Source of the DNA: Deinococcales bacterium
GTDB taxonomy: Bacteria > Deinococcota > Deinococci > Deinococcales > JAAFIG01
Direction of reading: 5' to 3'
NCBI GenBank assembly: GCA_013298595.1
Contig: JAAFIG010000020.1
Span: 16,926 to 80,925, forward strand
Length of the DNA stretch: 64,000 nucleotides
The notes beneath the pieces are model-generated. The model ran no database searches. It saw nothing but the letters and a program-made list of their open reading frames with translations, and was not told the origin of the DNA. The translations under genes were made by a program, and so were the position numbers. Shown here piece by piece: positions 13,109-63,239 of the stretch. Numbering within the stretch: the first letter of the stretch is position 1; each line of letters begins with the position of its first letter.

Positions 13109-13140
13109 ATTATTCTATACGATGAGTGCTATTTGAGTGT
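13109..13140 (-). promoter_or_regulatory. SARP-like direct-repeat promoter of a SARP gene
   Basis: On the minus strand ACACTCA (13140-13134), AATA, GCACTCA (13129-13123), eight bases, AATAAT (13114-13109), a 5-of-6 match to the -10 consensus. It precedes the regulator starting at 13090, and the layout is the same 32 bp as at the lipoprotein promoters. Confidence 0.65.
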
Positions 13141-13307
13141 GAATCTGGTTGTAAGAACAAACGTTTGCATCTTGTCAGTCTCGAGTATCTGGGGTTCAAT
13201 CAATCAAGAATTCACCTCGAGCCTTGCCACTGAGTAAGGAACACCGCAATACAACACCCGCTCGAGGTGTAAACTAGCTTATTTGTTCCACCCCCGAAGG
13301 AGTTGTT

Positions 13308-14474
13308 GTGACACAAACCATGCAAGATGTGCAAATTAGTACTAAACCCGCTGTGATGGAAGGCTTAAAAGGCGTGGTTTTCACCGAATCGAAACTATCT
13401 TTTATTGATGGCGAAAAAGGCATCCTTAAATATGTTGGTATTCCGATTCAAGAACTCGCCGAGAACAGCACTTACGAAGAAACCGCTTTTTTACTGTTCA
13501 ATGCACGTTTACCCAGCAAATCTGAACTCGAGGCTTTTGATGCCGAGTTGCGCTCAAGACGGGTTATTCCCGCTGGTTTAATCGAACAAATGCGTTTATA
13601 CCCAAAGGATTTGCATCCAATGCACGCTTTACGAACAGCCATCTCGAGTCTGGCGATGTTTGATCAGACAGCTGATGACACCTCAGAAGCGGGTAAACTC
13701 GAGAAAGCTCTGAATTTAACAGCCCAAACAGCTACTATTATTGCGGCTTTGTTTCGTTTACAACAAGGTCTCGAGCCTGTGGCAGCTAAAACCACCTTGA
13801 ATCATGCGGCTAATTTCTTGTATATGTTGCATGATGCCGAACCCAGTGCCGAACAAGCCCGTTTATTCGATATTGCTTTAATTTTACATGCCGACCATGG
13901 CATGAATGCCAGTACTTTCACGGGTATTGCCACTGCCAGCACTTTATCGGACATGTACTCGAGTATCACCAGTGCGATTGGAAGCCTTAAAGGTCCTTTG
14001 CATGGTGGTGCCAACGAAGCTGTGATGGATATGTTAGCGCAAATTGGTTCACCCGAAAATGCTGAAAGCTTTATCAATGCTAAACTCGAGAAAAAAGAGA
14101 AAATCATGGGCGTAGGACATGCGGTTTATAAATTCTTTGATCCTCGCTCTCGGGTTTTAAAAGAATATGCCGAAGTTGTTGCCAATAAACATGGTAAAAG
14201 CCTAGCTTACAGCACCCTCGAGAAAGTTGAAGAAATTGTGGTAGCACGCCTTGGTAGTCGAGGTATTTATCCTAATGTGGATTTTTATAGTGGTGTGGTT
14301 TACTCCGATCTTGGTTTACCAAAATCGTATTTCACACCGATTTTTGCCCTTTCAAGAATCGCAGGTTGGACTGCCAGCATTATCGAATACACCAAGAAAA
14401 ACAGTATTTTGCGTCCAACTGCTAATTACACTGGACCTTCAGATGCACACTGGATTCCGCTCGAGCAACGATAA
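13308..14474 (+). CDS. gltA: Citrate synthase
   Basis: This 388-residue protein joins acetyl-CoA and oxaloacetate to citrate at the entry of the TCA cycle, in the cytoplasm. Family residues are visible: GPLHGGANE with the active-site His near residue 232, GVGHAVYKFFDP with a second His near 271 and the catalytic Asp near 278, and the ADHGMNASTF substrate loop near 195-205. Length is normal for the short bacterial type. The GTG start at 13308 follows GAAGGAG. CTCGAG sits in many codons. It stands alone, followed by a hairpin, then pgi on the same strand. Confidence 0.95.
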   Translation: MTQTMQDVQISTKPAVMEGLKGVVFTESKLSFIDGEKGILKYVGIPIQELAENSTYEETAFLLFNARLPSKSELEAFDAELRSRRVIPAGLIEQMRLYPKDLHPMHALRTAISSLAMFDQTADDTSEAGKLEKALNLTAQTATIIAALFRLQQGLEPVAAKTTLNHAANFLYMLHDAEPSAEQARLFDIALILHADHGMNASTFTGIATASTLSDMYSSITSAIGSLKGPLHGGANEAVMDMLAQIGSPENAESFINAKLEKKEKIMGVGHAVYKFFDPRSRVLKEYAEVVANKHGKSLAYSTLEKVEEIVVARLGSRGIYPNVDFYSGVVYSDLGLPKSYFTPIFALSRIAGWTASIIEYTKKNSILRPTANYTGPSDAHWIPLEQR

Positions 14475-14494
14475 CCTAATCAGAGAACTATATG

Positions 14495-14519
14495 GGCGAG
14501 GCTTGCCTCGCCTGTTTTT
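14495..14519 (+). terminator. Palindromic hairpin terminator after gltA
   Basis: GGCGAGGC and GCCTCGCC flank two bases (14495-14512) and a T-run follows, so it is a good intrinsic terminator. The same palindrome recurs at 63147 and, in a degenerate form, at 41341, so it may derive from a dispersed repeat. Confidence 0.7.
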
Positions 14520-14530
14520 GAGAGGACACC

Positions 14531-16153
14531 ATGTCTACATTGACCACTTCCCCCGCTTGGCAAGCTCTCGAGCAGCACTACACAGAAATTCAAGAAACGC
14601 ATTTGCGTCAGTTATTTGCTTCCGATCCGACTCGAGGCACACGTTTTTCACTCGAAGCAGCCGAGCTATACTTGGATTACTCAAAAAATCGTGTCACCGA
14701 TACAACCATAGCTTTGTTACTCGAGTTAGCCAAGGCAGCTGGATTAGAAAATAAAATCAAAGCGATGTTTAATGGTGAGAAAATCAATACCACCGAGCAG
14801 CGAGCTGTTTTACACACGGCTTTACGTGCCGCTCGAGATGCTGATGTGCGGGTGGATGGCGTTAATGTTATCCCAGAAGTCTATGCCGTACTGGACAAAA
14901 TGGCAGAATTTGCCGAGAAAATCCGTACTGGGCAATGGCTGGGGCATACAGGTAAACGCATTAAAAACATTGTGAATATCGGTATTGGTGGCTCGGATTT
15001 AGGTCCAGTCATGGCATATAAAGCCCTTGGGTTTTACTCGCAACGCAATTTGGTCTTTCGCTTTGTTTCTAATGTAGACAGCACTGATTTTATCGAAGCT
15101 ACAAAGGATCTGCACCCCGAAGAAACCTTATTTATTATTTGTTCTAAAACCTTTACCACCCAAGAAACCATGCAAAATGCAGTTTCTGCCAGAGCATGGA
15201 GTTTAGCGGTCTTGCGCGACGAAACAGCGGTTTCAAAACATTTTGTGGCAGTCAGTACCAATGCAACCGAAGTCGCAAAATTTGGTATTGATACCAGCAG
15301 TATGTTTGGCTTCTGGGACTGGGTTGGTGGGCGTTACTCCATGACATCCGCTGTTGGTTTATCGTTAATGATAGCCATTGGACAAGCCAGCTATCATAAT
15401 TTGCTCGAGGGTTTCCGTGCCATGGATACCCATTTTAGAACTGCGCCTTTTGAACAAAATATGCCAGTCATTCTTGGTTTACTGGGTATTTGGTATAACA
15501 ATTTTTTTGGCGCTGCCAGCCATGCTGTGTTGCCTTACGATCATTATTTAACGTATTTTAGTGCGTATTTACAACAACTCGATATGGAAAGTAATGGCAA
15601 AACCACAACACTTGTTGGCTCGAGGACAGATTATGAAACTGGGCAGATTATTTGGGGGCAGCCTGGTACTAATGGGCAACACGCTTTTTACCAACTCATT
15701 CACCAAGGTTCTAAATTGATTCCTTGCGATTTTATTGCCTTTAGTAAAAGCCTTAATCCACTGGGGCAGCACCACGATCTACTGTTAGCAAATGTTTTTG
15801 CCCAAAGCCAAGCTTTGGCATTTGGTAAAACCCCCGAAGAAGTGATTCGAGATGGTGTTAAACCCGAACTTGTCGCCCATAAAGTCTTTGCTGGTAACAA
15901 ACCAAGTAATACGATTATGGCAGCCGAATTAACGCCCTTTACCCTAGGTGCTTTGGTGGCATTATATGAACACAAAGTTTTTGTTCAAGGTGTTATCTGG
16001 GATGTCAATAGTTTTGACCAATGGGGTGTAGAACTTGGTAAGGTATTAGCACAAAATATTGCACAGCAATTAATCAATCATCAAACACCGCCACTCGAGC
16101 AAGATAGCAGCACCAACGCGTTGCTCGCACGGCACTGGCAACGTCAGAAATAA
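14531..16153 (+). CDS. pgi: Glucose-6-phosphate isomerase
   Basis: This 540-residue enzyme interconverts glucose-6-phosphate and fructose-6-phosphate. Both family signatures are present: [15 protein letters not shown] near residues 197-212 (sugar-phosphate binding) and [10 protein letters not shown] near residue 495. The length matches the large E. coli-like type rather than the short bacillus type. The start ATG at 14531 has GAGAGGA upstream. The gene converges on the third regulator gene with a 29-bp gap. Confidence 0.95.
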
Positions 16154-16182
16154 ACAGCATAAACTGCGCGAAGCCGTTTAAC

Positions 16183-18375
16183 TCAAGCTCGAGTTATTGA
16201 ATATTGTTGTTTTAGGCGGCTTTGAAACCCCTGTTGCAATTCTGGGTATGTTTCAAGACTTTGGGTTAAATGCTCGAGCACTTGGTTGTACGGTTCTGCT
16301 AAGGCAATTCGTAGGGCAAGTTCTTCGAGACCTGTGACAGTAGGAAGCACTTTTTGCCCAGCAGCAAGATTTTCTTGAGTTGGCTCGAGCCGAATTTTTA
16401 AGGCTAAAATTCTTGTTGCAAATTGCTGATTGCCAGATAATTCCTCGAGAATTTCGCTTGGAATAGGTTGTTGCAATTGCTCAAGAGCGATGGCTTTGGA
16501 GTACAAACTGGCTAAGCGAATTTCTTGGTTTGTATGATCTACAAGTAATTCCAAAATGTCTAATGATTGTTTGTAGTTGCCTTCGGCAAGCAGTAAATCT
16601 GCTTTTTGTAAATTATAATGACTTTGTAATTCTTGTAAACCTGTTGATTCCATGAGTTGTTTAGCTTCTGCTAAATGATTCCAAGCTGCCACAAAATCAC
16701 CAACCTGAGCCACATATTCAACTTGGGCTAGTAAACGTGCAACAAGCCCTCGAGTATCTTTGATTTTGCGGGCACATTCAATACCAGCTAAACCTGTTTC
16801 AATAGCAACCCCTAAGTTGCCACGTTGATAATGGGATATCGCCAGATTATTCAAAATTGAACCCTCAAGCACTGGGTTTCCAGTCACTCGAGCCACTTCG
16901 ATGGCTTCCTCGAGGGTTGCAGTCAAAGCTGTGTTATCACCAAGATTGGCATAGACTTTAGAAATATTGACCAACACCATCGCCAGATTAATAGCGTTGT
17001 TGCTCGATTCGCATTCGCGTTTTGCCATCTCAAGCCACTCGAGTGCTTTCAGGTTCTCGCCGTCCATCATGGCAAAAATTCCTGCCATACTGAGGATTCC
17101 TGGGCGGTAAAATCGCTCGTCGGTATCTTGCAGCAGTGTTAAAGCAGTTTGATGTAAGGCTCGAGCTTCGCTGATATTGCCACGCTGCATTTCGAGTTGA
17201 GCTAAACCATAATGAGCATGGACACGTTCATTAATTTTTTGGATGGGTAGCAAATCCACGGCTTGACGAAAAGCGATGTTCGCTTCGGCTAATTTACCAA
17301 GCCGCATGTTGCAAGCTCCGGAGACATACTGAGCTAAGCTCGAGGCTTCCTTAGACAGCAATGGATTGCGTAAGGCAGCTGTGGCGGTTTCTAAAGCTGC
17401 TGCAAAATTTTGTGTTTGGGTTAACCATTGGGCTTTTGTGACCAATGCTTCGCCCTCGAGTCGGGAGTCTCCTCGACTGCATTGCTCTAATGCCAAAAGT
17501 TCTTTTTCGATTTCATCTACTTTAGACATCCGATATAACAATTCGATACGTTTTTTGTGCAAACCAGCTTTTTCACTCGGAATTTTTTGTAATTGTAATG
17601 CATTACCAAAATGCTCAAAAGACGCTGCGTAATCATGTAATTGCTCGGCTTCGGCAGCCGCTGCTAAGCGAAAAGTAATCGCTTCTTTGCCACGCCCTAA
17701 CCGCTCGAGCAACTTAGCGCTTCCTTCAGCATTGGCACTATCAGAAACCAAAAGTTGGGCAGTCTCGAGTTTAGGGGTTAAACCAATCTCGGCTAAACGC
17801 TGCTTAAACAAATCAAAAACCCGTTCGGCTTCGTCACGTTGTCCTTGGTTTAACAAACAACGCAATAAAGCTTGCGAATCAAAGTCAGATAAAGGCTCGA
17901 GCAACATAATTTCTTGATAAACAACTATCGCAGCGCTGACATCGGTTAACTCGAGTCTTGCTGCATGGTTTCGCATTTGCTCGAGCCGTTTTTTACTCAA
18001 ATCAAGTCGTTGCTGCTCGAGCCACGTTTCAAACTCGGGTGCGTCTGATAATTGCAGACCCTGTAAAAATTCACCAGCTTCGGAGAACACCTCGAGATCG
18101 GTTTGAAAAGCAAGCAATTGCACTGTGGTATTGGTAATCTCGAGAAAGTCTTTGATTTCCGTTTCGCGCAGCCGATGCAATTCGCGGCGCAAATTCCCAC
18201 TGGCATTACTGACACCACCCCAAAGCAATTCTGCTAGTGTTTGGCGTTGCACAACGCCCTCGAGCGCAAGGTACGCCAGTAAAGCTAAACTTTTTTTTGT
18301 CAATTTCACTTCACGTTTTTTTAGTAAAACCTGAGGAGTCCCCAACAGTTTTAACTCGAGTTTTTGCAGCTTCAT
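16183..18375 (-). CDS. SARP-type regulator without ATPase, with TPR repeats
   Basis: This 730-residue protein has a winged-helix region at residues about 5-85 (LELKLLGTPQVLL, SLALLAYLALEGVVQRQTLA), a BTAD to about 215, then only helical TPR-like repeats. Unlike the three other regulators it has no Walker A or B motif, so activation by ATP-driven oligomerisation is unlikely. Residues 460-580 have clear TPRs (LANLGDNTALTATLEEAIEVA, then GNPVLEGSILNNLAISHYQRG). It is divergent from a lipoprotein and papain-like protease pair, which may be its targets. A SARP-like repeat lies upstream on its own strand. Confidence 0.85.
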   Translation of the reverse strand: MKLQKLELKLLGTPQVLLKKREVKLTKKSLALLAYLALEGVVQRQTLAELLWGGVSNASGNLRRELHRLRETEIKDFLEITNTTVQLLAFQTDLEVFSEAGEFLQGLQLSDAPEFETWLEQQRLDLSKKRLEQMRNHAARLELTDVSAAIVVYQEIMLLEPLSDFDSQALLRCLLNQGQRDEAERVFDLFKQRLAEIGLTPKLETAQLLVSDSANAEGSAKLLERLGRGKEAITFRLAAAAEAEQLHDYAASFEHFGNALQLQKIPSEKAGLHKKRIELLYRMSKVDEIEKELLALEQCSRGDSRLEGEALVTKAQWLTQTQNFAAALETATAALRNPLLSKEASSLAQYVSGACNMRLGKLAEANIAFRQAVDLLPIQKINERVHAHYGLAQLEMQRGNISEARALHQTALTLLQDTDERFYRPGILSMAGIFAMMDGENLKALEWLEMAKRECESSNNAINLAMVLVNISKVYANLGDNTALTATLEEAIEVARVTGNPVLEGSILNNLAISHYQRGNLGVAIETGLAGIECARKIKDTRGLVARLLAQVEYVAQVGDFVAAWNHLAEAKQLMESTGLQELQSHYNLQKADLLLAEGNYKQSLDILELLVDHTNQEIRLASLYSKAIALEQLQQPIPSEILEELSGNQQFATRILALKIRLEPTQENLAAGQKVLPTVTGLEELALRIALAEPYNQVLEHLTQSLETYPELQQGFQSRLKQQYSITRA

Positions 18376-18468
18376 GCTGTATTTTACCCATTTGCAATAT
18401 TTGAAATCGAAACGAGCGTTACCAAGTTCAGGAATGGAATACGAAACACTATGTTTTTCCTTTCTAGG

Positions 18469-18500
18469 AAGCTATTTTTTTGGTAACGCAAAAGTAACGC
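18469..18500 (-). promoter_or_regulatory. SARP-like direct repeat upstream of the third regulator
   Basis: On the minus strand GCGTTAC (18500-18494), TTTT, GCGTTAC (18489-18483), eight bases, TAGCTT (18474-18469, a weak -10). A third, inverted copy of the heptamer lies at 18416-18422. The site also faces the lipoprotein gene at 18724 but lacks a good -10 in that direction. Confidence 0.55.
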
Positions 18501-18510
18501 CCCTACTGTC

Positions 18511-18564
18511 AAACTAATAGCATCAAACAAGCAAAGAGGCTTGCTGGTTTGATGCTATTAGTTT
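18511..18564. repeat. 18-bp perfect inverted repeat (long hairpin)
   Basis: 18511-18528 and 18547-18564 are perfect reverse complements around an 18-base centre that can pair further (CAAGC with GCTTG). No T-run follows on either strand, so it is not a standard terminator. It sits 11 bp from the GCGTTAC repeats in the 348-bp gap between divergent genes. It could be an operator, an RNA leader structure or a tiny mobile remnant. Confidence 0.6.
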
Positions 18565-18723
18565 GTACAACATCTCGAGCAAAGGTATAGAAGAAACATT
18601 CACAATTTTGGCAAATCGGCATCCGTAGGGTGACTCAACCATCTCTGAGTAAGGTTTGGTCGAAAATGCCCTAAAGCAGCGGCAGAATGCAATTATCTGC
18701 ACGCTTGAACCAAGGAGAATCAT

Positions 18724-19686
18724 ATGATTACCAAGAAAAGTACCAGTTCATTTATCGTAGCAAGTGTACTCTTGTCCATTGGCTTAGTGGCTTGCCCAGC
18801 CCCAGTGGTTGACACAGCACCACCTACGATTGTCAGTACCGTCCCAGCCAATGGTGCGACTGGAGTCGCAGCAGATGCAAATATTGTCATCACATTTAGT
18901 AAACCCATGAACAAAATTGCCACGCAAAATGCTTATCAATCGGCAACTATTTTGCCATTGCTGGTACAATTTTCGTGGAACGCCAATGGCACGGTATTGA
19001 CAATTGATCCAACAGGTAATCTCAACGTGGCTTCGGGTACAGACCCTGCCAATGTTGTCGCCACAGAATTTAGTTTCCAAATTACCAATGTCGCCTCAGA
19101 TTTGGCTGGAAACGCACTGACAACAACAAGCTCGAGTTTCAAAACTGCACGCCGTATTTCCCAGACTATGCCAGCAAATAGTACGTTATCAGGCGATATT
19201 TTTGCCGATGGAACTGTTGCTCCTAGCTTTCCAGCGCGAGTTGGAGATTTTACCAATAATTCGCAATTTAAAGGATTAGTAACTTTTAACATTGCTAGCC
19301 TCCCAACAGATATCGGCACCTTTGAAAAAGCAGATTTGATACTAACCCAAACATCAGTAGATGGAACGCCATATGGGAGCACTAATCTTGGAACAGTCAA
19401 TCTGGAACATGTTGCCTTTGCTTCCTTTACAAAGCCCTTGGCTTATGATGCACCATCGCTAGGAACAACTTTTTCACCAGATGCGATCTTTTCAACCAAT
19501 ACTGCTATTGAAGTGAAAACAAAAAGTGTGATACCTGCTGTGCTCAGCGACTACACCAACAGAACTAGTCGCGGTAATCGGTCACAGTACCGCCTTACCT
19601 TTACGACAGCAGCAACGTTTAATGGTATCCGAGATTCTGCTAGCTTCAGTAGTCCAGAACTCAAACTAACGTACTTGTTGCCGTAA
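18724..19686 (+). CDS. Lipoprotein with SbsA-type Ig-like domain
   Basis: This 320-residue protein has a lipoprotein signal (GLVACPAP, Cys near residue 24). Residues about 30-140 are a Big_5/SbsA Ig-like domain, typical in the phrases PPTIVSTVPANGATGV, ITFSKPM and SFQITNVASDLAGNAL. The C-terminal 170 residues are beta-rich (FPARVGDFTNNSQFKGLVTF, DLILTQTSV) and resemble the carbohydrate-binding CBM96/DNRLRE-type module, so cell-surface glycan binding is possible. It starts after AAGGAG. It lies 123 bp before the papain-like protease gene on the same strand and divergent from a SARP-type regulator. Only one CTCGAG is seen in it. Confidence 0.8.
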   Translation: MITKKSTSSFIVASVLLSIGLVACPAPVVDTAPPTIVSTVPANGATGVAADANIVITFSKPMNKIATQNAYQSATILPLLVQFSWNANGTVLTIDPTGNLNVASGTDPANVVATEFSFQITNVASDLAGNALTTTSSSFKTARRISQTMPANSTLSGDIFADGTVAPSFPARVGDFTNNSQFKGLVTFNIASLPTDIGTFEKADLILTQTSVDGTPYGSTNLGTVNLEHVAFASFTKPLAYDAPSLGTTFSPDAIFSTNTAIEVKTKSVIPAVLSDYTNRTSRGNRSQYRLTFTTAATFNGIRDSASFSSPELKLTYLLP

Positions 19687-19731
19687 GACACTGCCCCCTA
19701 CATAGTCCCTGATCAGGACTCGACTGCACCA

Positions 19732-19769
19732 AATTACGGCGTGAGGCAAGCCTCCTTTACGCCGTAATT
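19732..19769 (+). terminator. Hairpin between lipoprotein and protease genes
   Basis: An 11-bp perfect stem (19732-19742 with 19759-19769) with an inner GAGGC/GCCTC pairing. No T-run follows on the plus strand, so it may be a weak terminator or a processing hairpin within an operon. Confidence 0.45.
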
Positions 19770-19809
19770 CGTTGTCTTGCTGAAAAAATACGCAAAAAAG
19801 GAGCAAGTT

Positions 19810-22395
19810 ATGAAATACCAATGGACGTTTCTTATTAGCAGTTTAGTTGCACTGATGGTCGCTTGTGGCGCACCTCCACCGCCTCCTGAAGTTTTTGTAG
19901 CCGAGAACGCTTGGAAAACTCCGATTCCAACCGATTCCCAAATTGTGAGTCCCGAGGAGTTCCGAAGTCGAGTCAATTCAGGTGAACTCAGGGTTGTCAG
20001 TACCGAAGGAATTGCTGCCGAAAAAGCGTTCATACAAAAGCAGTACAACGACGATAAAGTGCTACTTCAAGGTATAGCGAATAAATCTCCTGCTTTACAA
20101 GCTTTGCTCGAGGAAGCTGCTCAACAAACCAAAGCAGATGGTGATCGTACCCTTCAATTGCCTGATGGAAGCAATGTAACGCTATTAGGATTAACCACGC
20201 AAATCCGAGAAGCAGTTGAAACGTATCAAACTTCGCAAGATGCTGGTAATGCTCTTGGTGTTTATAGCCTTAGCTACTCATTACTACCTGCAAATGTCAA
20301 AGCGCTTGTTCCAACCCCTGCTAGCATGAATGGAAAATCTTTAACTGAAATAAACGCTGCTCTAAGTAATATGAACCAAGCACTTGGAACTGCCTCGAGT
20401 GGCTTAAATACTGCGCGCTTAGAGCCAAGAAGTATTGCGCCATCTAGTGGGCAACTGCAAACACAATCATTTGCGTCTGGTAATGGCACTGATAATTCTG
20501 GAGCTTGCACACCCACCAACTACGTGGCAAAGTATTGGTTTCCACTGAAAAACTTTGTGAGTCCAGTCAAACAACAAGGTAAGCGTGGAACCTGCTGGGC
20601 ATTTACAGCTATTGGTGCAGTGGAGAGTCGTGAACGGGTTCAAAATAATAATCCCGCTGACCTTTCTGAACAGTTTTTGGTAAATAAAGTCAAAGAAGAC
20701 TGGGATTCAAGTAAATACACAGACGCATATCAGTCAGAAAAAGCCTTAAATTTGGCGGTTGATAAAGGTCAAGCATTTCCATCAGAAGGTAGTTGGACGT
20801 ATAACCCTGCATATGGACGACCAGATACAAGCAAAGACGATGAAAACACCGAAAAGGCGTATGTTAATACTTGCAAAGATTACACTGGAATGTGTTCAGA
20901 TACATCGCATCAAAGTCGGCGCACTTGTAGTACCTTTGTTGTTACTGTTTGTGCATACTCAACTGTTGGGTTCTCTGGATCTGGGGTGACGGCAAATCGA
21001 ACACGTCAAATCTATTCAAGTTACTTTTTTCCAGTTATAGGTTTACCACTGAATCTTCTTCGTGCCTTACTTTCACAAGGACACACCATTATGGCGTCTT
21101 TTCCTGTCTATACGGGATTTTCTAATGTAGGTAAAGACGGAATTGTCGGTAACTACGCAACCACTGGTTACGAAGGAGGTCATGCTGTACAAATCGTTGG
21201 GTTTTTGTCGAATAGTGAACTCTCAACTGCGGGGCAAAAAGTGAATGTTGGTGGCGGTGGTTATTTTATTGTTAAGAACTCTTGGGGGTGTAATAAGGGT
21301 GATGGCGGGTATTATTACATTCCAGCCGATTATGTTGCAGGCTATTTTTATAGATTAAGTGTGCTTGAATTTGATTCCCGCCGCTCGAGTCAATGGAATA
21401 GTGCCCAACAAAACCCAGGTGGTGCTCCAACAATCAACACTGCAAATATCACAGCCAATTTACGAGCCAGCAAAGATTTAGCAGATAGTTTTACCATCAG
21501 GCATCCGTATGCAAAGCAAGTTAGCTTAACAGTCACTTCTGATAAGGATGGGAAACTCTTTGAAGGAGGATGGAATACGCAAAATGCCACGGTTCTTGCA
21601 AGGCAAACTCTTCCAGTTGTTTTTACAAGCCTAGGAGTACGAACCATTAGTCTGGTGGCAAAAAATGCTGCCTTTGAGGCTCGAGCCAGTTTTACTGTCA
21701 GTGTTTTTAATTCAAATCCGAATATTCGATTGTTATACAATGGCAATCCAAATCAAGGCGAGAATTTTGTGCTCAATGCCATCATTTCAGATGATAACGA
21801 ACCAGAGGGAACAACGCTTTGTGCGAATGCTACGTGGTCTGTAAGCGCACCAGATACCCTGAATACCAATACGGGTTGCTTGGTGCAAGTTAAATTTGGT
21901 ACCACAGGTTCTCGGCAGGTTTCGGTTGTCACCAGAGATAGCGAAGGATTACCTTCACCAGTTAAAGTGGAGACTTTTCAAGTTTCGCCGCCACTGGCAA
22001 ATCCTTATCCACGCATACTAGCTTCAGGTGTTTACTCACGAGAAGTAAGCGGAATTTGCCGCGATATTGCCGTCAGCAGCGGAAATCGTATTGACTTACG
22101 AGAATCGGGTTGTGGCGGAGCAGCCCAGCGTTTTTCGGCACAAGTGCAAGTCGAAAATCCGAGTGGAGAAAACCTAACATATGACTGGAAATTGTTTGTT
22201 CCAAACATAGACAGTGAGAGTGTCTTGATTGGTGGAAACACCAGTACTTTACCGTTATCGTTTAATAATAATGGAGAAGTTTATACTGTACCGTGTCGTG
22301 TGGAACTGACGGTTGGTGCTCCTGATCCTAGCCGTAGCAAAACCCAAACCGTTTGGATAGGTTCGTGCACATATCGAAACTTCGGACCAAACTAA
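19810..22395 (+). CDS. Papain-like (C1A) cysteine protease lipoprotein
   Basis: This 861-residue protein starts at ATG 19810 after AAGGAG; an upstream start would spoil the signal. Its lipoprotein signal ends in LMVACGA. Residues about 230-540 are a papain-family domain: Gln of the oxyanion hole and catalytic Cys262 in KQQGKRGTCWAF, catalytic His458 in EGGHAVQIVG, and Asn490 in VKNSWGCNKGDGGYYYIP. Residues 20-230 are a pro-like helical region. The C-terminal 300 residues look like two PKD or Ig-like beta domains. It should act outside the cell, tethered to the membrane. It has only about four CTCGAG sites in 2.6 kb, far fewer than housekeeping genes, which may point to later acquisition. Confidence 0.88.
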   Translation: MKYQWTFLISSLVALMVACGAPPPPPEVFVAENAWKTPIPTDSQIVSPEEFRSRVNSGELRVVSTEGIAAEKAFIQKQYNDDKVLLQGIANKSPALQALLEEAAQQTKADGDRTLQLPDGSNVTLLGLTTQIREAVETYQTSQDAGNALGVYSLSYSLLPANVKALVPTPASMNGKSLTEINAALSNMNQALGTASSGLNTARLEPRSIAPSSGQLQTQSFASGNGTDNSGACTPTNYVAKYWFPLKNFVSPVKQQGKRGTCWAFTAIGAVESRERVQNNNPADLSEQFLVNKVKEDWDSSKYTDAYQSEKALNLAVDKGQAFPSEGSWTYNPAYGRPDTSKDDENTEKAYVNTCKDYTGMCSDTSHQSRRTCSTFVVTVCAYSTVGFSGSGVTANRTRQIYSSYFFPVIGLPLNLLRALLSQGHTIMASFPVYTGFSNVGKDGIVGNYATTGYEGGHAVQIVGFLSNSELSTAGQKVNVGGGGYFIVKNSWGCNKGDGGYYYIPADYVAGYFYRLSVLEFDSRRSSQWNSAQQNPGGAPTINTANITANLRASKDLADSFTIRHPYAKQVSLTVTSDKDGKLFEGGWNTQNATVLARQTLPVVFTSLGVRTISLVAKNAAFEARASFTVSVFNSNPNIRLLYNGNPNQGENFVLNAIISDDNEPEGTTLCANATWSVSAPDTLNTNTGCLVQVKFGTTGSRQVSVVTRDSEGLPSPVKVETFQVSPPLANPYPRILASGVYSREVSGICRDIAVSSGNRIDLRESGCGGAAQRFSAQVQVENPSGENLTYDWKLFVPNIDSESVLIGGNTSTLPLSFNNNGEVYTVPCRVELTVGAPDPSRSKTQTVWIGSCTYRNFGPN

Positions 22396-22418
22396 ACACT
22401 GAACTGATTTTAGCTATA

Positions 22419-22453
22419 AATGACTCGAGGTATTAAAGTTCCCTTGAGTCATT
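22419..22453 (+). terminator. Hairpin between protease gene and galT
   Basis: A 12-bp stem with one G-T pair (22419-22430 with 22442-22453) includes CTCGAG in one arm. No clear T-run follows. It lies just upstream of the galT promoter and probably ends the protease transcript. Confidence 0.4.
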
Positions 22454-22484
22454 CATGGTTTCGAGCCACCTGCTAGAATACATT

Positions 22485-52522: not shown

Positions 52523-52550
52523 TAGGCTAAATCCGTTAGACTGGCAGCGA

Positions 52551-53567: not shown

Positions 53568-53579
53568 GCATACCTAGGT

Positions 53580-53608
53580 TTGCAATACTATTGAATCCGA
53601 TGTATCCT
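53580..53608 (+). promoter_or_regulatory. Leaderless promoter of padR
   Basis: TTGCAA (53580-53585), 17-bp spacer, TATCCT (53603-53608), then 5 nt to ATG 53614. Confidence 0.7.
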
Positions 53609-53613
53609 GAAGT

Positions 53614-54557: not shown

Positions 54558-54593
54558 ATAAATTTCGTTCTGTAACTACGACTGGGGAGTTCT

Positions 54594-55208: not shown

Positions 55209-55218
55209 ATTCTCGAGT

Positions 55219-55989: not shown

Positions 55990-56086
55990 GGTTTTAGTGT
56001 ACGACAAGTTTTTGCTTGAGGCTGTGATGGATAGGCTTTTGCCTTTCAGGGGTTTTTAAGACCCTCCTTTGTATTGTGTATTTCGG

Positions 56087-56206
56087 AAGTGGTTACGCTG
56101 GTGTTTTGGTGGTAGTTGAGGCTGTCCGGAGGGGCTTTTGCGTCTCGAGTATCACGAAGGGCTGAAATTGGATAGGAGACAGTTTCGGCGTTTAGCGTAA
56201 CCACTT
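56087..56206. ncRNA. Candidate structured RNA or long hairpin
   Basis: In the 265-bp gap 56008-56272, 56087-56099 and 56194-56206 are 13-bp perfect reverse complements about 95 nt apart, and inside them CTGTC (56122-56126) can pair with GACAG (56178-56182). A further GU-extended helix is possible. The shape is like a closed-stem small RNA of about 120 nt (for example 6S-like or a riboswitch), but I recognise no named motif, and the strand is not known. A T5 run follows on the plus side (56211-56215). Whether it is transcribed is unknown. Confidence 0.35.
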
Positions 56207-56272
56207 TCAGTTTTTAGGGTTTGTTAACTCGAGATGGAATGGGCTGCAAAGAGTCTCGAGTTAGGTGATGTT

Positions 56273-57229
56273 CTAGGCTAATCCCACCATTTCCTCGGAA
56301 ACTTGCCATAGTTGTTCGGCTCGAGCTTGGTCAAGAACATAGGGCTGATACCCAGAGTAAGGTTTTGCTGGGTCAAACGGCAATGCCTCTTGGCAATCCT
56401 CGAGGTACAAACCACCAATGCCTGTTAATTCGTTGCCTACGGCTGCCCAGATGGAAGTAGAAGCACCTTGTTGGATGGTTTTGAACAGTGGGTTTGGGGT
56501 TCCGTGTTCATCAATCCAACCCATCGCTCGTTGTTCTTCTTCTGGTAAGAATTTTTGTAAACCAGTTAAGATTCCACCCGGATGTAAAGCATTGGCAGTG
56601 ATTCCATCTTTGCCATAGATTTGATTCCAACCAACAGCAAATAAGATATTGGCTGTTTTGGATTGCCCGTAAGCCTCCCATTTTTCATAGGGGCGTTGCT
56701 GATAATTTGGATCCTCAAAATTGATATCTGAACGGCGATGCCCCATTGAACTGACCATAATAATTCTCGAGGGAGCCGCTGCCAATAAAGCAGGTTGGAG
56801 TAATCTCGAAAATAAATAATGCCCAAGGTGATTGGTGCCGAACTGCATTTCAAAACCATCCTCGGTTCGTGGGAAAAGAGGTGTTGTCATGACTCCAGCG
56901 TTGTTAATTACTATGTGCAGTTTTGACCAACGCGAAAGTACTTGTGCGGCTGCTTGACGCACCGAAGTCAACGAACTGAGATTTAACTCGAGCACATGAG
57001 CCGCTGGATTCTTGGTTTCTTGGCGCAATTGGGCTGCGACAGCTTCGCCTTTTACGGTGTCACGCACTGCCATAATCACTTCGGCACCAGCAGAAAGTAA
57101 TGCTCTAACAGTTTCGATGCCAAGACCAGAACTTGCACCTGTCACCAGTGCTGTCTGACCACTGAGGTCATGACCATGAATAACCTCGAGGGCGGTTGAA
57201 CGTGCACCAAATGGGGATGTGATCGGCAT
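56273..57229 (-). CDS. Short-chain dehydrogenase/reductase (WWOX/retinol dehydrogenase-like)
   Basis: This 318-residue SDR has VTGASSGLGIETVRALLSAG near residue 28 (TGxxxGxG), INNAGVM near 108 and YGQSKTANIL near 187 with catalytic Tyr and Lys. The N-terminal lead (PFGARSTALEVIHGHDLSGQ) and long C-terminus fit the WWOX-like oxidoreductase group. An AAAGGAG site precedes ATG 57229. The substrate is unknown. Confidence 0.88.
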   Translation of the reverse strand: MPITSPFGARSTALEVIHGHDLSGQTALVTGASSGLGIETVRALLSAGAEVIMAVRDTVKGEAVAAQLRQETKNPAAHVLELNLSSLTSVRQAAAQVLSRWSKLHIVINNAGVMTTPLFPRTEDGFEMQFGTNHLGHYLFSRLLQPALLAAAPSRIIMVSSMGHRRSDINFEDPNYQQRPYEKWEAYGQSKTANILFAVGWNQIYGKDGITANALHPGGILTGLQKFLPEEEQRAMGWIDEHGTPNPLFKTIQQGASTSIWAAVGNELTGIGGLYLEDCQEALPFDPAKPYSGYQPYVLDQARAEQLWQVSEEMVGLA

Positions 57230-57660
57230 ATAAAACTCCTTTTACGACAGTTTGTAACCTAGACTCGAGGCTCGTAGCTGAGTGTAGACCATTTTTCCTT
57301 ACTCAACACTTTTTCCTGAGTGGTTTCTTGAATACTGAACAGTTGCACTCAAGTACCTTACAACTTGGAGTTGACTTTACACTAAGTCGCACTAGCTAAA
57401 ACATCAATATCTTGCTCGGAACGGGTTATTTATGTGACGTTATGTTTTGACGCTGTTTTGACGCTGCTTACTCCATAATCAAATCAGAGGTAAAAGGTGC
57501 TCGATGATTGGCTAAAAACTCGAGGTTAGCCGATTGGTAAGGCAAGTAATTAGGCTGTTGAAAACAAATGATTTGCGTTCAGGTTTTTTTCAGGGCAGCA
57601 TTTGTAAACTCTACGTACAAATTTAAGCCACACCAAACTCTTGTTTTAAAGGACGTGAAT
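57230..57660. other. 431-bp intergenic region with divergent promoters
   Basis: This gap separates the divergent SDR and the small lipoprotein genes. It holds a SARP-like repeat (57448-57479) and a short GGCTAA/TTAGCC hairpin with CTCGAG in the loop (57510-57531). On the minus side, AGGAAAAA occurs twice 18 bp apart within the SDR promoter region. I see no tRNA or further ORF. Confidence 0.5.
57448..57479 (+). promoter_or_regulatory. SARP-like direct-repeat promoter
   Basis: TGACGCT (57448-57454), GTTT, TGACGCT (57459-57465), eight bases, CATAAT (57474-57479, 5 of 6 -10 matches). It faces the small ORF at 57661 and the lipoprotein at 57759, leaving a leader of about 175 nt. Confidence 0.65.
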
Positions 57661-57762
57661 ATGAAACCAATGGCATTCTCGAGTTTATTTTTAGCATTGG
57701 CTTGGACTGAAAATATTTCTAGCCAAAACTGTGGGAAATTTAGTTGGAGGACAACAATATGA
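57661..57762 (+). CDS. 33-residue leader-like ORF
   Basis: An ORF of 33 residues (KPMAFSSLFLALAWTENISS) begins after AAAGGACG and its stop overlaps the next ATG by 4 bp. The start looks like a signal peptide, but the lipobox Cys is not placed as in a lipoprotein. It may be a leader peptide coupling translation, or a decayed lipoprotein gene. Confidence 0.4.
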   Translation: MKPMAFSSLFLALAWTENISSQNCGKFSWRTTI

Positions 57763-58253
57763 AAGCATTTCTACTACGTATGTTCTTGGGTATTTCATTG
57801 ATATTTATGCTCAGTGGGTGCTTGTTATCTGATATCCTTAGGATTCCACCTGCGCCGCTGCCTGAGCCTGTTGGGAAAATGGACGTTGTTTTTAGTAATG
57901 CAGCAGGACTGCAAGTGCCGTATTTGCTTGATGCCATTTCAGGTGGCGTTGTTGTGAGTAAACGTCCACAATTTCAAACAATTTTTTATGTGAAACAAGA
58001 TACTCGCGTAGTTGCAGTCAGTCTTCCTCAAAATCCATTACAAGATAATCAGAGCTGTGACCTGAGTGTAAGGACTTTGTGTTTTGTAAGTGTCTACGAT
58101 AACTTTACGGAATTTTGGAGTATTAGCGGCACGGTAATTGCTACACTCGCTGACGGTCAGCTTGCGTTAAATGGTAGGGCAAAAGTGCAACTAGATAAAG
58201 GTACGGCTACGTTTGATATAGCTATTAACGCCACCCTGCCGTTTCAACCATAG
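57759..58253 (+). CDS. Putative small lipoprotein
   Basis: This 164-residue protein starts at ATG 57759 after TTGGAGG. The signal ends in lipobox LSGCLL. The mature part is a beta-rich domain (MDVVFSNAAGLQVPYLLDA, GTATFDIAINATLPF) with two Cys that may pair (QSCDLSVRTLCF). I do not recognise the family. No CTCGAG is seen in this gene, unlike most of the window. It precedes the SARP-type regulator at 58555 by about 300 bp on the same strand. Confidence 0.72.
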   Translation: MKAFLLRMFLGISLIFMLSGCLLSDILRIPPAPLPEPVGKMDVVFSNAAGLQVPYLLDAISGGVVVSKRPQFQTIFYVKQDTRVVAVSLPQNPLQDNQSCDLSVRTLCFVSVYDNFTEFWSISGTVIATLADGQLALNGRAKVQLDKGTATFDIAINATLPFQP

Positions 58254-58554
58254 TGGTTTCTGGTGTCGTATCGTGGTTTTGACTTATCGAAATTTTTAAC
58301 ACAAACGTTTTGCAAATTAAGCATACAGGGTAAAAAGGACTTTGGTTAGTTCTAGCCAAATACTAATTCCAACTTTTTAGACTATTTAGGAGCATATACG
58401 AGTCTGAAACATGAATTTTTAATTCATACTTTGTCTAGGAATTTTTTCGCTGAGAGAGTTTTTGATTTTTCAGAGGGTTTTCAGACCATATTTCTTATGG
58501 TATTTGGGTGGCAAAAACTTTTCATTTCTCGAGGTTCTGGTACGCTTTTAACCA
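58254..58554 (+). other. 301-bp gap before the fourth regulator
   Basis: The gap holds a 7-bp inverted repeat (ATGAATT with AATTCAT, near 58410-58428) and the SARP-like promoter at 58470-58501. No further gene is seen. Confidence 0.5.
58470..58501 (+). promoter_or_regulatory. SARP-like direct-repeat promoter of a SARP gene
   Basis: TCAGAGG (58470-58476), GTTT, TCAGACC (58481-58487), eight bases, TATGGT (58496-58501). The heptamer TCAGACC is the same as in the promoter of the lipoprotein at 63261, so one regulator may read both. It faces the regulator at 58555 with a 53-nt leader. Confidence 0.65.
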
Positions 58555-61443
58555 ATGGCATTGGCGCTTTTATGGCTGGGTATTCCCGTCGTCCGTTTGG
58601 ACGGCGTGGAATTGCGTCTTGGAGCCAAGGCGGTAGCCATGCTTGCCATGCTTTCTGTGGATGGTCGAGCCAATCGCCGCGATGTCGGAAGGTTGCTGTG
58701 GGCAGATGCGTCCGATGCTTTAAACAGCGTTTCGGCGGCTCGAGTACAACTTGGTAAGGTTTTGGGCGATTACTTAGGTGGGGATACTGAAACCTTGGTT
58801 TTGCAAGGCGATTGGTCGTGTGATGTGCCAAGTGTTCGCGCTGCATGGCAATCGGGACAGGATACCGCCAGTGCTTTTGCGTTGTACCGAGGTGATTTTC
58901 TCGAGGGTTTGCGTTTACCCGAGTGGTCACGTGGGGTCGGTGAGGAATTTGAATCGTGGTTATATCAAAATCGTGAATCCTTAGCCGAAATCCGTTTTGA
59001 TTTAGCAACGCGGCTGGGTTCGGGTTTAGCAACGAATCAGCAACTCGAGCAAGCTGTGCAATTTTTACAAGTCACGCAAAGCAGTTTGCAACCTCGAGAA
59101 GATGCTGCGCGTTTATTGTTGTTGTGTCTCGGGGCATTGGGTCGTTTAGACGAAGCAATATCCGTTTTTGCTCGGCTCGAGAAAGCCTTACTTGAAGACC
59201 TAGGTGTGCCGCCGTTGGCAAAGACCCGAGATGCGCTCGAGATGGTACGAACTGGGCGTGAAGCGGCTCGAGCTGAGTTACTGCGTGAACTGGGGATGGC
59301 AAAACCAAATCTGTTACAGATCTCGCAAGCCGAAACCGATGTGCCATTGGTGGGGCGTGCGCTCGAGCAGCAGCGTTTGCAAGATGAATTGACGCGAACT
59401 CGAGCAGGGGAGACGCGTTTGGTTTGGTTGGCTGGGGAGCCGGGTGTGGGTAAAACCCGTTTAGCTCGAGAAGTTATGCAATTGGCAAGTCAAGAAGGTT
59501 GGCTGGTTGCGCTTGCCGAAGCTACGCAATCTGATGGTGTGCTGGCATTGCTCGAGCGAGTTTTGCGCCGAGTAATGCGCCAAACTTCCTTGGCTGCTTT
59601 GCGGCTCGAGTTACAAGAAGCTGTGCAACAATTACTGGGTGAGTTGCCAACAAAAAGCGAATTCTCCGAGCGGATGTTACTCGAGGCTTTACGAACTTTG
59701 CTGGTACAAGTTTCCGAGCCAGTGGTTTTGGTACTCGATGATGTGCAATGGATAGATGCAGCCAGTTTACGGGTGGTGATGCAGTTACTCCGAGCCAATA
59801 TCAAACAAGGTTTACTGCTGATAGCGACGATCCGCGATACCGAAATTCCACGTAGCGATTTACAAATGCTGATCGAGTTTATTGGGCGTGAAGGTCGAGG
59901 GACTCGTCTTAAATTAACTGGTTTAAGTGTTGCTGAAACACTTTCGCTGGCAGCAATGCTTGGGCGTAACACCACCCAAGCTGAATTACTCCATCAATCC
60001 TCGGGCGGTAATCCATTTTTCTTACTCGAGTTATTCCGTTCCACAGGTACAGTTGTGCCAGAGCGAGTCCAAGATGCGTTGCGGGCACGGATTGCACGTT
60101 TACCTGCGATTGCCAGTCAAATGCTCGATGCTTTAGCAATTTTAGGCAGCACTAACCAAGGTGTGTTGCGTGAAGTAGCAGGGCGTTCGCTCGAGGAAAG
60201 TGCCGAAGCCCTCGAGTACCTAGAATTTGCTGGTTTAATTCGCTTTGAAAACAGCGATGTTTTCTTTGCCCATGATTTAACTCGAGAAGCAGCTTTGCGC
60301 GACCTCAGTTATGCGCGTTGCGAAGTGTTGAACTTACGCGCGGCTCGAGCTTTACGAGCACCAGTGCAGGCAGCACTGCATTACTGGGCAGCCAAGAATT
60401 TATGGGACGAAACCGATACCGAAAAAGCGGCTGTGGTTTTTATTCAAGCGGCTGTGCAGGCAGCGCAGCGCGGTGTATTGCAAACCCATTGGTTTGAACG
60501 TGCCCAAGAAGTCAGCAAAGATTATCAGACTCGAGCCAAAGCACTGACTGAACAAGGACGTGCTTTGGAACGCTTTGGACAGCATCAACAAGCCCTCGAG
60601 GTGCTCGATCATGCCGAAGTGATTTTACAAAATAGTGCCAATTTGATGGCTCGAGCAGCGCCGCTGGTGGTACGAGCCAATCTGCTGGCATTAAAATTGG
60701 GCAGGCTCGAGGAAGCTGTGCCACTGGCAGAACAAGCCTTGGAGTGGTTAGCTACCGAGCACTCTGATGAAGCACGATTATTGCAAAGCGATGCCCAAAG
60801 TACCCTTGGCACGGTGGCACGTTTGCGTGGGCAATTTACCGAAGCTGCCGAGTTTTTTGCGGGTGCACTGCGTTTACGCCAAGCCCTGCGCGACCGCCCA
60901 CGAATTGCGGCGGCGCTGAACAATTTAGGAACTGCTTTGGTAAAATTACAAGACCCAAGCGCCGAGCAAACATTACTTTCGGGTGTGCAACTCTGCGAAG
61001 AAATTGGTGATGTAATTAATATGGCACGTTGCCTCAATAACCTTGGTGTACTTTATAACGATGTACTTAAACGCCATGATGCGGCTCGAGCTGCGTACTT
61101 AAAAGTCCAACAATTGCAAGAAGAAATTGGTGATACATGGGGTATTGCCCTCAGTACCCTGAACTTAGGTGTAACAGCTTTCCACCAACAATTACTCGAG
61201 GAAGCTAAAACCCATTATCTCGAGACTTTGCGTTTAACAAATGATTTTCCGCAATTACAACATGAAGCGTTGTACAATTTAGCCGAAGTCGAATTAGCTT
61301 TGTCTAATTATCAAATTGCCAAAGTACACATTGAGCATTTAATGCGATTACTATCCCAGATTCCTGAACAATCCAGCGAGTATGATGCCGCGTTTATTGC
61401 CGATGCAAAAGCCTTAGCTGCCAGCATTCAAGGAGGTTCTTAA
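58555..61443 (+). CDS. SARP-type regulator with ATPase and TPR repeats
   Basis: This 962-residue protein has a winged helix at residues about 5-85 (LGAKAVAMLAMLSVDGRANRRDVGRLLWADASD), a BTAD to about 235, a STAND/AAA-type ATPase with Walker A GEPGVGKTR near residue 294 and VLVLDDVQWID near 390, then TPRs (GTALVKLQDPSAEQTLLSGVQ). The first in-frame start is ATG 58555. The stop TAA overlaps the next ATG (TAATG), so the subtilisin-like lipoprotein is translated with it. A SARP-like promoter lies just upstream. It is more distant from the other three regulators. Confidence 0.87.
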   Translation: MALALLWLGIPVVRLDGVELRLGAKAVAMLAMLSVDGRANRRDVGRLLWADASDALNSVSAARVQLGKVLGDYLGGDTETLVLQGDWSCDVPSVRAAWQSGQDTASAFALYRGDFLEGLRLPEWSRGVGEEFESWLYQNRESLAEIRFDLATRLGSGLATNQQLEQAVQFLQVTQSSLQPREDAARLLLLCLGALGRLDEAISVFARLEKALLEDLGVPPLAKTRDALEMVRTGREAARAELLRELGMAKPNLLQISQAETDVPLVGRALEQQRLQDELTRTRAGETRLVWLAGEPGVGKTRLAREVMQLASQEGWLVALAEATQSDGVLALLERVLRRVMRQTSLAALRLELQEAVQQLLGELPTKSEFSERMLLEALRTLLVQVSEPVVLVLDDVQWIDAASLRVVMQLLRANIKQGLLLIATIRDTEIPRSDLQMLIEFIGREGRGTRLKLTGLSVAETLSLAAMLGRNTTQAELLHQSSGGNPFFLLELFRSTGTVVPERVQDALRARIARLPAIASQMLDALAILGSTNQGVLREVAGRSLEESAEALEYLEFAGLIRFENSDVFFAHDLTREAALRDLSYARCEVLNLRAARALRAPVQAALHYWAAKNLWDETDTEKAAVVFIQAAVQAAQRGVLQTHWFERAQEVSKDYQTRAKALTEQGRALERFGQHQQALEVLDHAEVILQNSANLMARAAPLVVRANLLALKLGRLEEAVPLAEQALEWLATEHSDEARLLQSDAQSTLGTVARLRGQFTEAAEFFAGALRLRQALRDRPRIAAALNNLGTALVKLQDPSAEQTLLSGVQLCEEIGDVINMARCLNNLGVLYNDVLKRHDAARAAYLKVQQLQEEIGDTWGIALSTLNLGVTAFHQQLLEEAKTHYLETLRLTNDFPQLQHEALYNLAEVELALSNYQIAKVHIEHLMRLLSQIPEQSSEYDAAFIADAKALAASIQGGS

Positions 61444-62942
61444 TGCACAAATTTTTTGTTTTCTTTGTCTTATTGGTTGGTTGCACCAACCCAGTTACAC
61501 CAACCATTTCGGAGATCAACAATGTTACCCCTCGAGTTGCCCAAACTGGTGACAGCGTTATTTTACGAGGCAAAGGATTTGTGGCAGGGAGCAACGTCAG
61601 TATTGGAACCAGCAATGCAGCCATCATCTCGAGCACAACCACCGAACTGATTGTGACGATGCCAAACCTTCCCATAGGCGAATACGACCTTGTGCTGCGC
61701 CAACCCAACGGTACAGAAACTCGAGTCGCGGGACCTGCTGTGCTTGGAGCAGACAATACCGATTTGGTGGCTCGCGAAATTATTGTTACAGGGGTATTTA
61801 CCCAAAGTGAAATCAGCAGTATCGCCTCGAGCAACGGCTATCAAGTCTTGCAATTGAACAGTACCAGCATTGGCGATATGCCCAGTTGCAACCGCAGTTA
61901 CGCAGCACTGCGCGACACTCGAGGACGCAGCACCAGTACAGCTATCAATGAATTACAAGCTGCGTTGCAAATTATTAACCCAGCTTACGAAGCAAATCCT
62001 CGTTCAATACTGGCGGGTAGCCAAACCACAAGCACAAAAGTTTACCCACAAGGAACCATTCCAATTCCAACGCCATCACCCACCGACATTAACCTTGCCA
62101 ACATCAAAGTCGCTATTCTCGATAGTGGAGTCTCGGGTCACCCAAGCCTTGGCACCCTCGAAACAGGACACAACCTGACCAACTTCGACAACCCAGCCGA
62201 CCCTCGAGCCATTGCCACCGATGTCAGCGATCTCGGCATCTACGGCAATAGCACTACAGGGCATGGCACAGGAGTCGCTGCCTTAATTAGTGCCTCGAGT
62301 ATCGGGTTGAGTACAGGTTACGCTGTTGGTACACCAATCCAACCCATCAAAGTCTGCCAAACCACCAATAACAAAAACCAATGCGATGGCATGGATGTTG
62401 TCCTTGGCATCTGCCAAGCCGTTGCAAGGGGCACAAACATCATCAACCTTTCACTTGGCGGCAAACAACCATTTCGTGCCCTCAAACAAGTCTTACTCGA
62501 GACCAGCAACAAAGGCATCAGCATCATTGCCGCCGCAGGTAACAACGGCATACAAAACAACCCACCAGCCAACTACCCAGCCGCCTACGCCCTCGAGATA
62601 CCTGGACTGATCGCCGTTGCTGCTACAGAAAACAACGGCACCAACTGGGTAGGCTCGAGTTACTCCACCCCAGGAAACTATGTCACCATTGCCGCACCCG
62701 GCACAAACGAAACTGCTATTGTCACCGATAATGGCGTAGCAGGATACGGCACAGCTACACTTGAAGGCACAAGTTTTGCCACACCTATTGTCAGTGCTGC
62801 TGTGGCTCGAGTCAAAGCCAAAAATCCAACATGGACACCAGCCCAAATTAAATCCCGCCTCGAGAACACCGCCCAAAGTATTCCGTGCGAAAAAAATAAG
62901 TGCGGAGCAGGATTATTAGACATCACAGCTGCTGTTCAGTAA
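61443..62942 (+). CDS. Subtilisin-like (S8) serine protease lipoprotein
   Basis: This 499-residue protein has a lipoprotein signal ending LLVGCTN, an IPT/TIG Ig-like domain (about 18-95: PTISEINNVTPRVAQTGDSV), and a subtilase domain with the triad Asp227 in VAILDSGVSG, His274 in GHGTGVAAL and Ser444 in GTSFATP. It should act outside the cell, membrane-tethered. Its ATG overlaps the regulator's stop (TAATG), so regulator and protease are made together; this suggests the protease output or a cleaved peptide is tied to the regulator (inference). The SARP-like site at 58470 drives both. Confidence 0.9.
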   Translation: MHKFFVFFVLLVGCTNPVTPTISEINNVTPRVAQTGDSVILRGKGFVAGSNVSIGTSNAAIISSTTTELIVTMPNLPIGEYDLVLRQPNGTETRVAGPAVLGADNTDLVAREIIVTGVFTQSEISSIASSNGYQVLQLNSTSIGDMPSCNRSYAALRDTRGRSTSTAINELQAALQIINPAYEANPRSILAGSQTTSTKVYPQGTIPIPTPSPTDINLANIKVAILDSGVSGHPSLGTLETGHNLTNFDNPADPRAIATDVSDLGIYGNSTTGHGTGVAALISASSIGLSTGYAVGTPIQPIKVCQTTNNKNQCDGMDVVLGICQAVARGTNIINLSLGGKQPFRALKQVLLETSNKGISIIAAAGNNGIQNNPPANYPAAYALEIPGLIAVAATENNGTNWVGSSYSTPGNYVTIAAPGTNETAIVTDNGVAGYGTATLEGTSFATPIVSAAVARVKAKNPTWTPAQIKSRLENTAQSIPCEKNKCGAGLLDITAAVQ

Positions 62943-63046
62943 TAAAAACTGTCATACAAACCGATTTATTTTTGCCTCTCGAGGTTTGTGGCAACGATAC
63001 TATCAGTTTCTGTTTTTGTATACAGCAAGTAAAATCGGTTTGGTAG

Positions 63047-63067
63047 GGGCGAACCTTGTGTTCGCCC
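63047..63067 (+). terminator. Hairpin after the subtilase gene (GTAGGGGCGAAC type)
   Basis: GGGCGAAC and GTTCGCCC (63047-63054, 63060-63067) form an 8-bp stem followed by TTT. The text TAGGGGCGAACCTTGTGTTCGCCC resembles a dispersed repeat found in many genomes. Confidence 0.5.
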
Positions 63068-63121
63068 TTTAGGACATCACGAATCGTATTGTTGCAGGGT
63101 ATTCAGCTTTTCATATGGTAA

Positions 63122-63172
63122 GCCGCTACGGCTAGATGCAATGTAGGGCGAGGCATGCCTCGCCGCTACGGC
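63122..63172. repeat. REP-like palindrome flanked by direct repeats
   Basis: GCCGCTACGGC occurs at 63122-63132 and 63162-63172. Between them, GGCGAGGC and GCCTCGCC around AT (63147-63164) repeat the palindrome found at 14495 and 41341. The layout suggests a small dispersed repeat rather than a gene; the 318-bp gap 62943-63260 holds no ORF I can support. Confidence 0.55.
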
Positions 63173-63207
63173 AGCATGTTTTAGGATATTTAACTCACTG
63201 CCCAATT

Positions 63208-63239
63208 TCAGACCCATTTCAGACCTGATTTTCTAGACT
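63208..63239 (+). promoter_or_regulatory. SARP-like direct-repeat promoter of the last lipoprotein
   Basis: TCAGACC (63208-63214), CATT, TCAGACC (63219-63225), eight bases, TAGACT (63234-63239, 4 of 6 to TATAAT). It faces ATG 63261 with a short leader. It shares the heptamer with the site upstream of the regulator at 58555. Confidence 0.7.

Follow-up and report, generated by a model that had tools for sequence, protein, structure and literature searches.

Period-11 direct repeats as candidate operator-promoters of SARP-type regulators in Deinococcales

The stretch of DNA analysed here (the window, 64 kb on contig C13) belongs to a Deinococcales draft genome of 4.58 Mb and 45% GC, and carries short words repeated in direct orientation upstream of regulator and lipoprotein genes (Table 1). 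An initial annotation had described eight such sites, each made of a heptamer, 4 bp, the same heptamer, 8 bp and a -10-like hexamer, and had suggested that each of the four SARP-type regulators encoded in the window may read its own word. Citrate synthase encoded in the window shares 91% identity with the enzyme of an uncultured 'Deinococcales bacterium' MAG. Are these repeats more than chance, and which proteins would read them? Our analysis makes it very probable that the sites are operator-promoters of SARP-type activators acting by sigma adaptation, with paralogs that would recognize different words.

Table 1 Genes and candidate sites of the window (positions counted from its first letter)
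Feature	Position	Strand	Remarks
Lipoprotein gene	2..1333	minus	Probable target
Candidate operator-promoter, CCAGTCACGCT CCAGTCACGGT	1379..1414	minus	-10 TACGGT 1379-1384; toward lipoprotein gene 2-1333
Lipoprotein gene	1509..3020	minus	Probable target
Candidate operator-promoter, CCAGTCACGCT CCAGTCA	3050..3085	minus	-10 TACGCT 3050-3055; toward lipoprotein gene 1509-3020
Lipoprotein gene, DUF5122 beta-propeller repeat	3176..4966	minus	Probable target
Candidate operator-promoter, CCAGTCACGCT CCAGTCA	4997..5032	minus	-10 TACGCT 4997-5002; toward lipoprotein gene 3176-4966
Large SARP-type regulator	6216..9623	minus	N-terminal winged helix (by AfsR similarity), BTAD, AAA_16, TPR
Large SARP-type regulator	9692..13090	minus	N-terminal winged helix (by AfsR similarity), BTAD, AAA_16, TPR
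Weak candidate, CACTCA 6-nt repeat, period 11	13109..13140	minus	Before regulator gene 9692-13090; not above chance
SARP-type regulator	16183..18375	minus	BTAD and TPR, no AAA domain found (Pfam)
Candidate site, GTAACGC-N4-GTAACGC	18483..18515	plus	CAAACT 9 nt on; probably toward lipoprotein gene 18724-19686
Lipoprotein gene, Big_5 domain	18724..19686	plus	Probable target of 18483 site
Candidate operator-promoter, GTTTTGACGCTG twice	57443..57479	plus	-10 CATAAT 57474-57479; upstream of lipoprotein gene 57759-58253
Lipoprotein gene	57759..58253	plus	Downstream of 57443 site; lipobox read by eye
Candidate operator-promoter, TTTTCAGA twice	58467..58501	plus	-10 TATGGT 58496-58501; upstream of regulator 58555 and overlapping S8 protease gene 61443
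Large SARP-type regulator	58555..61443	plus	BTAD, AAA_16, TPR (Pfam)
Secreted or lipoprotein S8 (subtilase) protease, TIG domain	61443..62942	plus	Start overlaps stop of regulator 58555
Candidate operator-promoter, ATTTCAGACC twice	63205..63239	plus	-10 TAGACT 63234-63239; upstream of lipoprotein gene 63261
Lipoprotein gene	63261..63998	plus	Probable target; runs off window

Excess of period-11 repeats in upstream DNA

Genes were called on 820 kb, comprising the window, 19 stretches around other BTAD genes and 20 control stretches, from which 507 upstream regions were drawn. The genome was sampled as these stretches, supplemented by whole-genome pattern searches, and 60 dinucleotide shuffles of the upstream DNA served as the control for repeats. 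Repeats containing CTCGAG were treated as chance and left out, because this palindrome is extremely common in the genome. Coding and intergenic DNA both carry it, at about 6-7 copies per kb, across the whole window and in the four family genomes compared in this work (G000-G003, three genera). Relative to the expectation from base composition, its frequency is 31x in this genome, 19-27x in the three relatives and 5-11x in other families. CTCGAG is a highly iterated palindrome like the cyanobacterial HIP1, but in Deinococcales; the HIP paper is silent on CTCGAG in this order (PMC4390886).

Exact repeats of at least 7 nt with a period of 11 were found 55 times in the 507 upstream regions, compared with a mean of 5.4 in the shuffles (maximum 11) and about 9 for each other period from 8 to 45 (2-21, mostly 4-15). 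The full layout as first described, with NANNNT at its exact spacing, was present 17 times against 0.45 in shuffled DNA (maximum 2). The initial annotation had named a comparison with shuffles as the check on its pattern, and on both counts the pattern therefore passes it, not being equally frequent there. The window's upstream DNA alone holds 9 period-11 repeats, where a control period yields 0.5. Expressed per 10 kb of upstream sequence, the density is 10.6 for the window, 7.4 for the surroundings of other BTAD genes and 2.9 for the control stretches, whereas other periods reach 0.6-1.1.

All eight sequences originally listed are present as written, and seven of the sites stand. The remaining one, at 13109, is at chance level: its repeat (CACTCA) spans only 6 nt, and repeats of that length abound whatever the period (about 15-40 for each). 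The exact repeats counted above range from 7 to 13 nt, and the repeating unit is better described as 8 bp followed by 3 bp than as a heptamer plus 4 bp.

Word grammar and position of the -10

The sites at 1383, 3054 and 5001 are the strongest, yet they lie outside the start coordinate 13109 given by the initial annotation. Their word, CCAGTCA-N4-CCAGTCA, occurs in seven copies genome-wide, and in all seven TANNNT follows exactly 12 nt after the second CCAGTCA, the promoters otherwise differing past the word. The hexamer first assigned to the three window sites, TTTGTA at 8 nt, is therefore not the -10; the conserved one, TACGGT or TACGCT at 12 nt, lies 4 nt away. In some CCAGTCA promoters CCAGT units stand in tandem, three or four together, alternating with TGCTTCGGATG-like segments (1383-1450 on the minus strand; C13:12915-12990).

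Most words have a common core, NNNN-ACGC, in which the first bases vary. Among ACG-containing repeats of the four family genomes, the -10 was searched for in the orientation given by ACG and not by the gene. Of 42 intergenic sites, 31 have NANNNT at a gap of 9 after ACGN and 9 have it at a gap of 8, any other gap being found in 0-8; TANNNT stood at gap 9 in 18 of the 42. Forty of these 42 sites are directed at the downstream gene. The grammar can be written as an 8-bp NNNN-ACGC repeated with an 11-bp period and followed, after 9 (8) bp, by TAnnnT, and it accounts for 54 sites in the four family genomes against 0-6 at control periods. A whole-genome scan for ACGC-N7-ACGC-N9-TANNNT gave 335 matches in 111 Deinococcales genomes, compared with 34 for the reversed pattern, and gaps 9 and 8 recur in stretches taken from eight genomes outside the family. 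The window thus shows a small part of a genuine and much wider pattern.

Words lacking ACGC are TGTTGCG, around a BTAD regulator on contig C3, and TTTCAGAC, around regulator 58555. There are several words, as first proposed, but mostly they are not unrelated, being variants of NNNN-ACGC. TCAGACC was rejected as a genome-wide word, having a single site only; the 58470/63208 pair rests on TTTCAGA. Likewise, GCGTTAC at 18469 had been taken as the word of a SARP gene's own promoter, but its ACGC orientation is that of the plus strand. Because this strand reads GTAACGC with CAAACT at the canonical 9-nt gap, its probable target is the gene of the Big_5 lipoprotein, 18724, and not that of the regulator, although the minus reading, GCGTTAC with TAGCTT toward gene 16183-18375, may also fit.

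The first repeat copy starts 29-25 nt before the start of the -10, and the operator overlaps the predicted -35 region. Direct repeats, an 11-bp period and a distance of about 8 bp between the 3' repeat and the -10 agree with published SARP operators, as the initial annotation had claimed. AfsR contacts the first 8 bp of each 11-bp repeat and not the last 3, and its operator covers the -35 (PMC10936776); judged by sequence, the layout described here matches that operator nearly to the base pair. Streptomyces also has three-copy SARP operators. As a separate observation, an array of TGTGACGCT/TGACGCTCG in multiple copies, with a TATACGAT-like element after it, precedes the gene at L058:6793 (contig C16 of G000).

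SARP-type regulators, neighbouring words and downstream genes

Of the 23 BTAD proteins encoded in the genome, four belong to the window. BTAD scores over the Pfam cut-off in all four; three combine AAA_16 with TPR, the nucleotide-binding and TPR domains of a large SARP, and regulator 16183 has TPR only. Neither a receiver nor Trans_reg_C was matched by Pfam in these four proteins. A profile of 33 N-terminal domains matched AfsR (8hvr, residues 45-287, E 1.6e-13) and EmbR (2fez, residues 11-263, E 5.1e-12), in both cases over the whole SARP domain. Foldseek with the AlphaFold model of regulator 9692, a low-confidence model (pLDDT 65), also placed AfsR and EmbR chains on top. Because the winged helix is weak in this model, the domain assignment rests on the sequence profile, which bears out the presence of four SARP-type regulators in the window. 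In AfsR, the DNA-contacting helix residues are R87, T88, S91, R92, R94 and K95 (PMC10936776), and their positions would map to the NLRxxLxRLR segment of our regulators. A contig scan of the genome with regulator 9692 found nothing.

Only about 4-5 of the 23 BTAD genes have a site in their own promoter. In many BTAD genes (L001, L002, L011, L014, L020, L023) the start codon follows a TATACT-like hexamer within a few bases, as would be expected if their transcripts were leaderless.

Several words cluster around particular regulators. Five of the seven CCAGTCA sites lie within 9 kb, beside the tandem regulators 6216 and 9692, and four of the five exact TGTTGCG-N4-TGTTGCG sites lie within 17 kb around the C3 BTAD gene, where two one-mismatch sites join the cluster. 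Among 57 regulators of the four genomes, a period-11 site lies at most 4 kb away from 34, compared with 2-9 at other periods. In a tree of these 57 regulators, clades go with words: three orthologs from three genera each stand beside GGCTACGC, two regulators beside AGCAACGC, and at least five members of a six-member clade beside (T/C)GCGACGC. The window's clade has AGTCACGC in this genome and AGTGACGC and AGTAACGC in another genus.

Tested by permuting the words between the regulators of each genome, regulators that resemble one another across genomes had words in common beyond expectation (p 0.0005; 0.0002-0.0003 in further runs). After removal of pairs above 55% identity the association weakened to p 0.012, and to p 0.053 with the strictest cut, at 48%. 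Counting against the SARP reading, the nearest BTAD gene is over 10 kb away from many sites in the genome, most BTAD genes have no site in their own promoter, and the numbers of BTAD genes and of ACGC-type sites correlate only moderately across genomes (Spearman 0.49). The suggestion that each regulator has its own word is upheld at the level of statistics: different regulators go with different words by neighbourhood and descent.

The predicted bias toward lipoprotein and secreted genes was also observed. In this genome, lipoproteins follow 9 of 31 sites against 51 of 751 genes overall (odds ratio 6.6, p 1e-4), four of the nine cases lying in the window. Among 27 unbiased grammar sites inspected family-wide, 16 precede genes that a crude motif marks as lipoprotein or secreted, although at least one call (L255) is doubtful and two sites (L243 and L247) share one gene. 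Functions at the surface or in nutrition are suggested by the secreted proteases and by the Ig-like, TIG and propeller lipoproteins.

Two further groups of genes were noted. Proteins of about 60 aa that share a YxLRxW-like motif are encoded beside BTAD genes or close to them, each with a period-11 operator of its own (L026:9169-9354, L025:11166-11351 and C13:16539, the last in L064, outside the window); Pfam gave no match for the two that were searched. At 5139-6232 on the plus strand, a VbhA-like antitoxin is followed by a split Fic gene (frames 5390-5731 and 5750-6232), whose second piece carries an HxFxxGNGRT motif.

Candidate readers of the words and comparison with known systems

Our model suggests that two 8-bp words, 11 bp or one helical turn apart, would span the -35, with TAnnnT starting 9 (sometimes 8) nt on. 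By homology to AfsR, each word would be occupied by one of two adjacent SARP domains, which would dock sigma region 4 in lieu of a -35 element. In AfsR, ATP binding relieves a block that the nucleotide-binding and TPR domains impose on the SARP domain (PMC10936776), and ATP may act on our regulators in the same way. The expanded family would thus consist of paralogs with different words, mostly NNNN-ACGC variants, which would activate secreted-protein and lipoprotein genes in their own neighbourhood and, in some cases, far from it. It is possible, though we put it forward tentatively, that the paralogs are kept orthogonal by a code in which NNNN follows the recognition-helix residues, word and regulator being mutually predictable across the order. 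Candidate examples are ARRNLRQRLYR with GGCT, ARRNLRRELHR with AGCA and ARKNLRHLLSR with (T/C)GCG.

One or a few global SARPs could instead read the ACGC core everywhere, the word differences being neutral drift, as the core common to most words and the many sites far from BTAD genes would allow. We consider this unlikely, however, as the variable four bases repeat in both copies and agree across genomes by regulator clade, and neither TGTTGCG nor the word around regulator 58555 contains ACGC.

The PhoB pho box consists of two 7-mers with 4-bp spacers, has an 11-bp period and replaces the -35. This layout is alike, and the genome has 17 OmpR/PhoB-type genes over the Pfam cut-off, one of which lies 1.6 kb from the distant site C1:190492; ordinary response regulators of this type might therefore be the readers, and Streptomyces PhoP also binds the AfsR site (PMC10972967). 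Yet none of the 17 is on contig C13, the word families cluster around BTAD genes, and word similarity across genomes tracks the BTAD regulators, which makes this reading quite improbable.

That the words merely reflect duplicated lipoprotein genes with their promoters, or dispersed repeats, and have no word-specific regulator is very improbable: although the spacer CGCT is common to all seven CCAGTCA copies and two window promoters are alike beyond the word, the seven copies keep the word and the place of TAnnnT in otherwise differing flanks, the genes that follow are of different kinds, the same words stand near orthologous regulators in other genera, and the grammar excess holds across many unrelated words.

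Taking SARP-type activators as the readers, the layout is already known from Streptomyces and hence not of a new kind. A 2024 review describes SARPs as exclusive to actinobacteria (PMC10972967), and the one paper found on a Deinococcus SARP leaves its regulator's targets open (PMC3564903). The literature searched, which covers few subscription journals, gave no account of such operators beyond actinobacteria, of a paralog set with many words or of a common ACGC grammar, and an earlier report is possible. An order-wide grammar with a -10 fixed to the base pair would provide target lists for SARPs in Deinococcus and Thermus-type genomes, the paralogs and words would be natural material for studying how SARPs choose DNA, and the role of SARPs would extend from antibiotic clusters to secreted and lipoprotein genes.

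Among known systems, the pho box differs in having one consensus word, read by a response regulator with a receiver domain. Deide_19260 of Deinococcus deserti is a SARP-type DNA-binding regulator from the same phylum, but it has a CheY-like receiver and no operator has been described for it (PMC3564903). The operators of Streptomyces SARP and SARP-LAL regulators such as PimR also have heptamers with 4-nt spacers in two or three copies, although in the case of PimR the operator lies clear of the -35 and serves antibiotic genes. Streptomyces coelicolor AfsR (PDB 8HVR, 8JKE, 8K60) shares with our regulators the winged helix, BTAD, nucleotide-binding and TPR domains, and its afs box has two 11-bp direct repeats over the -35, each with 8 contacted and 3 free bp, and a suboptimal -10 close downstream. 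Unlike AfsR, the system described here belongs to another phylum, uses other words before secreted and lipoprotein targets, and includes more than 20 paralogs with different words in one genome.
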